From Tenggerimyces flavus (GTDB lineage: Bacteria > Actinomycetota > Actinomycetes > Propionibacteriales > Actinopolymorphaceae), in assembly GCF_016907715.1 (NCBI RefSeq), contig NZ_JAFBCM010000001.1, forward strand, positions 2,480,001 to 2,544,000: a DNA stretch of 64,000 bases, written 5' to 3'. Each line of letters opens with the position of its first letter. Position 1 is the first letter of the stretch. Of this stretch, positions 50,184-51,888 are shown in pieces. The notes below the pieces were generated by a model. It was not told the DNA's origin, did no database searches, and saw only the letters and a list, made by a program, of their open reading frames with translations. The position numbers were made by a program, and so were the translations under genes.

Positions 50184-50325
50184 CCTCTTGAGTGCCCTTT
50201 GACGGGCATTCTTAGGGAGACCCGCGAGTCTTCTGTCTGCATCGCCAGGCCGTTTTCGGATGTTCACCGCGCTCCTGGTCTGGCGCGGCGGCCGGAGGGG
50301 ATCCTTATTTTGCGAAGGGGGAACG

Positions 50326-51591
50326 GTGGCCGGTTCCGATGTGGCCGAACGGCTGCACGACGTACTGCTGCGGCTGTTCGGCCGTGAGGCGCCGTTCCGG
50401 ATCCGCGCCTGGGACGGGTCGGAGGCCGGGCCCGCCGACGCGCCCGTGGTGCTGGTGCACTCGCGGCGCGCGTTGCGCCGGATGCTCTGGCGGCCCGACG
50501 AGCTGGGCCTCGCTCGCGCGTACGTGGCGGGCGAGGTCGACGTCGAGGGCGACCTGCTCTCTGCTTTGAAGCGGCTGGCGCCTTTTGGGCGCTTCATCGG
50601 CCGGCGGCCCGATCTGACTGCTGCCGATCGTCGGGAGCTCTTGCGTACGGCTGTGTTGTTGGGTGCGGTCGGGCCGGCGCCGAAGCCGCCGCCGGAGGAG
50701 TCGGTGCGGCCGCTGCCGGTGGGGCGGGACCGGGCGGTGATCAGTCACCACTACGACGTGGGGAACGAGTTTTACTCTTACGTGCTTGGGCCTTCTCTGG
50801 TCTTTTCCTCTGCGTACTTTGCTGATCCTGCTCTCGATCTGGAGGCTGCGCAGCGGGCGAAGCTGGATCTGGTGTGCCGCAAGCTGGGGTTGACGGCGGG
50901 AATGCGGCTGCTGGACGTGGGCTGTGGGTGGGGGTCGCTGCTGTTGCACGCGGCTTCTGAGTACGGCGTTCGCGGGGTGGGGATCACGGTGTCGGCGGAG
51001 CAGGCCGAGCTGGCGCGGAAGCGGATCGCCGAGGCTGATCTCGCTGACCGGTTGGAGATTCGGCTCGCTGACTGGCGGGAGGTCGACGACGGTCCGTACG
51101 ACGCGATCGCTTCGCTGGGTCTGACCGAGCACGTGGGGGCGGAGCATCTGGGTTCGTACGCGTCGTCGATGTTCGCGTTGCTGCGCGGTGGCGGGCGGTT
51201 GCTGAACCACCAGATCGCGCGCTCGGGCGAGTCGAGCGCGCCGGTGCGTTCCTTCGTCGACGCCTACGCGGCGCCCGAGGGCGAGCTGGTGCCGTTGGGA
51301 ACGATCATCTCCGCCCTGGAGGACGCGTCCTTCGAGGTGCGCGACGTCGAGTCGCTGCGCGAGCACTACGCCCGTACCTTGCGGGCGTGGGTCTCGAACC
51401 TCGAGGAGCACTGGTCCGCCTGCGCCTCCCGCACCTCACCGGGGCGCGTGCGTGCCTGGCACCTCTACATGGCAGCGTCAGCGTTGGCGTTCGAAGCAGC
51501 CCGCATCTCGGTCCACCAGGTGTTGGCGGTCTGCCCCCACGCCGACGGCCGCAGCGAGGTTCCGTTGACTCGTCGCGACTGGATCCTCTAG
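50326..51591 (+). CDS. cyclopropane-fatty-acyl-phospholipid synthase-like methyltransferase
   Basis: A 421-aa SAM-dependent methyltransferase of the CFA/mycolic acid cyclopropanase group. VISHHYDVGNEFYSYVLGPS and MRLLDVGCGWGSLLLHAAS (SAM motif I) are diagnostic; GVRGVGITVSAEQAE and SLGLTEHVG follow. CFA enzymes methylate double bonds of phospholipid acyl chains. The GTG at 50326 follows AAGGGGGAA; a start 66 bases upstream is possible but lacks a good site. A tRNA gene begins 23 bases after the stop, and no clear terminator lies between them. Confidence 0.9.
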   Translation: MAGSDVAERLHDVLLRLFGREAPFRIRAWDGSEAGPADAPVVLVHSRRALRRMLWRPDELGLARAYVAGEVDVEGDLLSALKRLAPFGRFIGRRPDLTAADRRELLRTAVLLGAVGPAPKPPPEESVRPLPVGRDRAVISHHYDVGNEFYSYVLGPSLVFSSAYFADPALDLEAAQRAKLDLVCRKLGLTAGMRLLDVGCGWGSLLLHAASEYGVRGVGITVSAEQAELARKRIAEADLADRLEIRLADWREVDDGPYDAIASLGLTEHVGAEHLGSYASSMFALLRGGGRLLNHQIARSGESSAPVRSFVDAYAAPEGELVPLGTIISALEDASFEVRDVESLREHYARTLRAWVSNLEEHWSACASRTSPGRVRAWHLYMAASALAFEAARISVHQVLAVCPHADGRSEVPLTRRDWIL

Positions 51592-51614: not shown

Positions 51615-51690
51615 GCCCCCGTAGCCCAACTGGTCGAGGCGGCCCACTTAAAATGGGTGCCAGCTGTGGGTTCGAATCCCACCGGGGGCA
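51615..51690 (+). tRNA. tRNA-Leu(UAA)-like, short variable arm
   Basis: Cloverleaf with a perfect 7-bp acceptor stem (GCCCCCG/CGGGGGC), discriminator A and no encoded CCA. The D-arm has 3 bp with a GG in the loop; the T-arm is GTGGG-TTCGAAT-CCCAC. The anticodon stem GCCCA/TGGGT encloses CTTAAAA, giving anticodon UAA (51649-51651), which reads UUA leucine codons. The variable region is only seven bases (GCCAGCT, 51659-51665), whereas bacterial tRNA-Leu normally has a long, base-paired variable arm. An alternative pairing shifted by one would give anticodon AAA, but with a poorer stem. Confidence 0.8.
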
Positions 51691-51888
51691 CGAGGCGGCC
51701 TCCCCTGCTCGCGCGACCTTTGGTCGGCTTCGGTGCGAACGGCGCGGCTGTCCCGCGTTCGTAGGGAGACCCAACTGATCCCCTAACCAGCCAATCTCGC
51801 GGTCGGATCCACGCCGATTCGGCTTGCCGCCACGGAGACTTGGACTCATCCCGTCTGGCGTTCCTTGGGGCAGCGAGAGGTGAGGCAG

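Follow-up and report, generated by a model that had tools for sequence, protein, structure and literature searches.

A tRNA-Leu(UAA) gene with a class I-size variable region

The window, a 64,000-nt stretch of Tenggerimyces flavus DNA covering C1:2480001-2544000 of the 8.52-Mb single-contig genome, carries one tRNA gene, at 51615-51690. ARAGORN predicted a tRNA-Leu(taa) at 51615-51691, and the Rfam family RF00005 matched 51615-51690 with 56.7 bits (E 1.5e-9). The gene, its parts and its upstream neighbor are as follows.

50260-51591, + strand: cyclopropane/mycolic acid synthase-like gene (PF02353), 23 bp upstream of the tRNA (domain, synteny)
51615-51690, + strand: tRNA-Leu(UAA) gene with a short variable region and no encoded CCA (ARAGORN, Rfam RF00005)
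51615-51621, + strand: 5′ strand of the acceptor stem, GCCCCCG, fully paired with 51683-51689 (sequence, fold)
51624-51640, + strand: D arm GCCCAACTGGTCGAGGC, 17 nt (sequence)
51642-51658, + strand: anticodon arm of 5 bp, one of them G-U, with loop CTTAAAA (sequence, fold)
51649-51651, + strand: anticodon TAA (UAA), for UUA (ARAGORN)
51659-51665, + strand: variable region GCCAGCT, 7 nt, the last base being U48, the partner of A15 (sequence)
51666-51682, + strand: T arm GTGGG-TTCGAAT-CCCAC (sequence, fold)
51690, + strand: discriminator base A73 (sequence)

The gene folded into a complete cloverleaf in which every arm paired, with an acceptor stem GCCCCCG/CGGGGGC and a D stem of 3 bp (10-25, 11-24 and C12-G23) next to a C13/A22 mismatch. 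The D arm carried A14, A15, G18G19 and C20a, and the 7-nt variable region was unpaired and little above the class I norm of 4-5 nt. A sequence-only reading of this DNA had described folding arms, a UAA anticodon, a 7-base variable region, a 3-bp D-stem and A73, and the sequence, ARAGORN and Rfam confirmed this description throughout. The variable region was neither paired nor as long as the 10 nt or more of a class II tRNA, and the 7/5 acceptor branch and absence of a long variable arm set the molecule apart from allo-tRNAs and tRNA-Sec-like forms, which combine a long variable arm with a branch other than 7/5. Its variable region of no more than 10 nt, C12-G23, C13/A22, A15:U48 and A73 are the features of actinobacterial short-arm tRNA-Leu.

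Conservation of the gene and the tRNA set of the genome

In the family f1, which is Actinopolymorphaceae as inferred from exact-pattern matches in three Actinopolymorpha species, the UAA tRNA gene was present in all eight genomes searched; identity was 92-100%, the variable regions measured 7-10 bases and were unpaired, and C20a was a common family feature. The PF02353 gene upstream was syntenic in all eight genomes as well, and finding the same locus and gene across the family argues against a mobile gene or a pseudogene. A rival explanation would place the true UUA decoder at another locus and treat this one as a pseudogene, the remnant of an integration site or an additional, mobile tRNA; it is consistent with the missing encoded CCA, with the lack of a match to a sigma-70-like promoter for this gene, and with the short tRNA-Leu genes borne by phages and plasmids. 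However, the gene was intact at one syntenic position in 8/8 family genomes, other tRNAs of the genome likewise have no encoded CCA, and the single-contig genome held no other UAA tRNA; we regard the explanation as highly improbable, and a pseudogene or att remnant was rejected on the grounds of family-wide conservation and synteny.

Typing of the 48 tRNA matches found by Rfam in the 8.52-Mb genome revealed no second UAA anticodon, and an independent whole-genome pattern for any UAA tRNA gave two further matches, neither of which was called a tRNA. The window tRNA is the sole UAA tRNA found in the genome, and there is therefore no place for the "unusual second UUA decoder" proposed earlier. 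Long-arm (class II) tRNA-Leu genes were limited to the CAA, CAG and GAG anticodons, and the UAA and UAG tRNAs existed as short forms only. The single tRNA-Leu(UAG) found (L093:9118-9191, − strand) was short-armed with a 5-nt variable region, indicating that CUA is also read by a short-arm tRNA.

Leucine identity elements

In E. coli, leucylation of tRNA-Leu relies on A73, the trans-Levitt pair A15-U48, G18G19 and A20a; the sequence and folding of the long arm are uncorrelated with leucylation, and variants deprived of both the anticodon arm and the long arm remain active (PMC9976931, a 2023 review). The premise that bacterial LeuRS expects a long arm thus does not hold for E. coli, since the arm is no identity element there (PMC9976931). 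The window tRNA contained the leucine set A73, A14, A15:U48 and G18G19, together with the 3-bp D stem and its 13/22 mismatch; A20a was found in most other short forms and is replaced by C20a here. A14, A15, U48 and A73 were common to all seven tRNAs with a Leu anticodon in the genome, whether long or short.

Outside leucine, the combination of A15:U48 and A73 occurred only in the tRNA-Lys and tRNA-Ala(TGC) of the genome, which makes Lys or Ala the nearest candidates if the UAA tRNA were charged with another amino acid and recoded UUA, a reassignment that would be cheap because UUA is rare. However, the Lys and Ala tRNAs have a D stem of 4 bp, whereas the window tRNA has the 3-bp leucine-type stem with the 13/22 mismatch. 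The acceptor stem does not contain G3:U70, the usual AlaRS signal, and the anticodon has no U35, the base that LysRS uses. Taken with the reading of UUA as leucine in TTA-rich relatives that have the same tRNA type (below), these features make recoding extremely unlikely. An anticodon switch from a Lys, Ala or Arg tRNA was rejected on the leucine-type D arm and on the acceptor stem and T arm shared by the long and short UAA tRNAs of family f58.

The meaning of UUA

TTA accounted for 22 of about 111,000 codons sampled in the source genome, and this rarity in a GC-rich genome places decoding there beyond a statistical test. We aligned the LeuRS genes of seven AT-rich f29 genomes, which have the short UAA tRNA only, to the LeuRS of the source genome. 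Leucine stood opposite 85 of the 123 TTA codons (69%), the others facing mostly Met, Ile, Tyr, Val and Phe, and the same alignment placed leucine opposite 68% of TTG and 60% of CTT codons; TTA thus behaved like TTG and showed no preference for a non-cognate residue. In the source genome itself, TTA codon 280 of FtsX corresponded to leucine in the best PDB match and TTA codon 85 of CbiM to leucine in Nonomuraea gerenzanensis, and TTA codon 129 of CbiM faced Thr, Gly or Leu depending on the homologue, at a site that is not conserved and hence uninformative. So far as sequence can tell, UUA is leucine. The suggestion of a tRNA that carries another amino acid and recodes UUA found no support, given the leucine identity elements and the alignment of UUA with leucine in short-only relatives; the alternative reading as a variant tRNA-Leu(UAA) was borne out by the complete cloverleaf and the same elements. 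A candidate new genetic code is thereby removed, with no sign of a code change from the short UAA tRNA.

Almost certainly, to judge from these comparisons, the window tRNA is the ordinary chromosomal tRNA-Leu(UAA) of this actinobacterium, short-armed and probably essential, which the resident LeuRS is expected to charge with leucine and which would read the very rare UUA and possibly UUG by wobble. It has no long arm because a short-arm subclass of tRNA-Leu is in use in its lineage, as in most of the Actinomycetes sampled. In this subclass, 5-10 unpaired bases replace the long arm, the features presumably read by LeuRS (A14, A15:U48, G18G19, A73 and the 3-bp D stem) are retained, and the core change to C12-G23, usually with A9, may compensate for the loss of the arm.

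Short and long forms across Actinomycetes

The short UAA-tRNA pattern matched in 189 of 296 genomes sampled across the class Actinomycetes, a count that includes some genomes with 13-nt arms, and the long pattern in 74 of 296, many of them chance matches in the AT-rich genomes of family f29. The long form was concentrated in f22 (Streptomyces-like, of the bldA type), f16, f17 and a few more families; f7, f23, f36, f37, f39, f41 and others had the short form and were essentially devoid of the long one. For most of the actinobacterial families sampled, the short form is the usual UAA tRNA; across the wider phylum the two UAA forms both occurred, at times inside one family. The UAG tRNA-Leu was mostly long in the class and short in f17, f20 and the source genome; because this distribution differs from that of UAA, the isoacceptors appear to have changed independently. 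Most genomes of f20 and f21 (G092 and G110, for example) matched neither UAA pattern; in these genomes the UAA tRNA may have a different base 37 or a divergent T arm.

The source genome contains two tandem LeuRS genes, one coding for a normal enzyme with the editing domain PF13603 (P0002) and the other for a 716-aa paralogue (P0001; L091:7158-9308, − strand, genome C1:6269157-6271307) that is devoid of the CP1 editing domain (no PF13603) and retains the HVGH and KMGKS motifs. The coexistence of this paralogue with the short tRNA is consistent with a dedicated second LeuRS serving that tRNA. However, the P0001-type paralogue was found in six Actinopolymorpha-like genomes (G002-G007) and not in G001, a genome of the same family that has the short tRNA, and most genomes of the order with the short tRNA are without the 716-aa form. 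Since presence of the paralogue does not track the short tRNA, a special LeuRS was rejected, and we consider such a division of labor very unlikely. Relatives of the paralogue with an insert the size of an editing domain seemingly serve as the main LeuRS in a handful of further genomes of the order, namely G010, G021, G023, G026 and G035.

Change of the arm and of the D-stem core

Full UAA tRNA sequences were compared from four families, among which f58 was the clearest case. There the acceptor stem GGGGGCG/CGCCCCTA and the T arm GTGGGTTCGAGTCCCAC were common to long and short UAA tRNAs, whereas the variable region measured 15 nt in the long and 5 nt in the short form and the D arm read GGCGGAATCGGTAGACGC in the long and AGCCCAATCGGCAGAGGC in the short form. 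The sharing of acceptor and T arms by long and short UAA tRNAs within families therefore points to repeated change of the arm.

The core was compared in 66 collected tRNA-Leu sequences, 55 short and 11 long, which are related by descent, so that the counts represent non-independent events and give no direction of loss or gain. Pair 12-23 was C-G in 54/55 short and G-C in 11/11 long tRNAs, and base 9 was A in 48/55 short and G in 11/11 long ones; A14, U48 and A73 were invariant in all 66, short and long, and A15 was missing from one. We consider it reasonably probable that tRNA-Leu has lost its class II arm widely and repeatedly in Actinomycetota and phages, isoacceptor by isoacceptor, accompanied by a flip of pair 12-23 from G-C to C-G and usually by a change of G9 to A9, yielding a working tRNA of class I size.

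Relation to known leucine tRNAs

Like E. coli tRNA-Leu and the Streptomyces bldA tRNA-Leu(UAA), the window tRNA has A14, A15:U48, G18G19, A73 and a 17-nt D arm with a 3-bp stem; with bldA it shares the anticodon and, as predicted from it, UUA decoding. It differs from bacterial class II tRNA-Leu in its unpaired variable region of 7 nt, compared to about 13-17 nt, and in having C12-G23 instead of G12-C23, A9 instead of G9, and C20a. Short-loop tRNA-Leu is on record from mycobacteria: a cluster-encoded tRNA-Leu(TAG) has a short loop (PMC6582537), and only Leu-2, -3 and -5 of M. tuberculosis are named as long (PMC11541572). These, too, are actinobacterial isoacceptors with a class I-size loop (PMC6582537, PMC11541572), but the mycobacterial cluster gene is an extra copy, unlike the window tRNA, which is the sole chromosomal UAA isoacceptor and has a 7-nt loop. 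Animal mitochondrial tRNA-Leu(UUR), recognized chiefly via A73 and A14 (PMC9976931), is likewise a leucine tRNA without the long arm; it is organellar and structurally eroded, whereas the window tRNA forms a stable GC-rich cloverleaf.

tRNA-Leu has been described as long-armed in every organism and organelle, animal mitochondria excepted (PMC9976931). As a universal statement for cytosolic tRNA-Leu, this is wrong for Actinomycetota, and the recurrent loss proposed above, if true, would mean that LeuRS, EF-Tu and the ribosome of free-living bacteria can do without the class II arm. In a literature search of partial coverage we found no paper that treats short tRNA-Leu as a class, the mycobacterial papers mentioning it in passing. 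The gene is a further case of a known, little-described short tRNA-Leu, and the class-wide short pattern with its changed core may be undescribed. The many natural long/short pairs within single families make Actinomycetes useful for probing the function of the class II arm. Tools for tRNA-seq that expect a loop of 13-22 nt for leucine tRNAs (PMC6297222) could miss or misassign the short ones.

Short tRNA-Leu genes were also found in Sinorhizobium phage Phosso (Leu(taa)), Pseudomonas phage vB_PseuGesM_254 and Mycobacterium phage BeanWater (L168, L169, L170). These phage tRNAs are about 74-79 nt long, several have the D arm of the window tRNA and, unlike it, they are accessory copies; the proteobacterial hosts of such phages are expected to have long-arm tRNA-Leu. 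Two additional short-arm genes, tRNA-Leu(gag) and tRNA-Leu(cag), stand in tandem in the source genome (L092:9846-9997, − strand, genome C1:4522845-4522996), and as a pair they are missing from the other family genomes. A pair 74-79% similar to them lies in G017, where it is part of a tRNA array that also includes Pro, Arg and Gln tRNAs, and the tandem genes are possibly the remnant of a mobile tRNA array.
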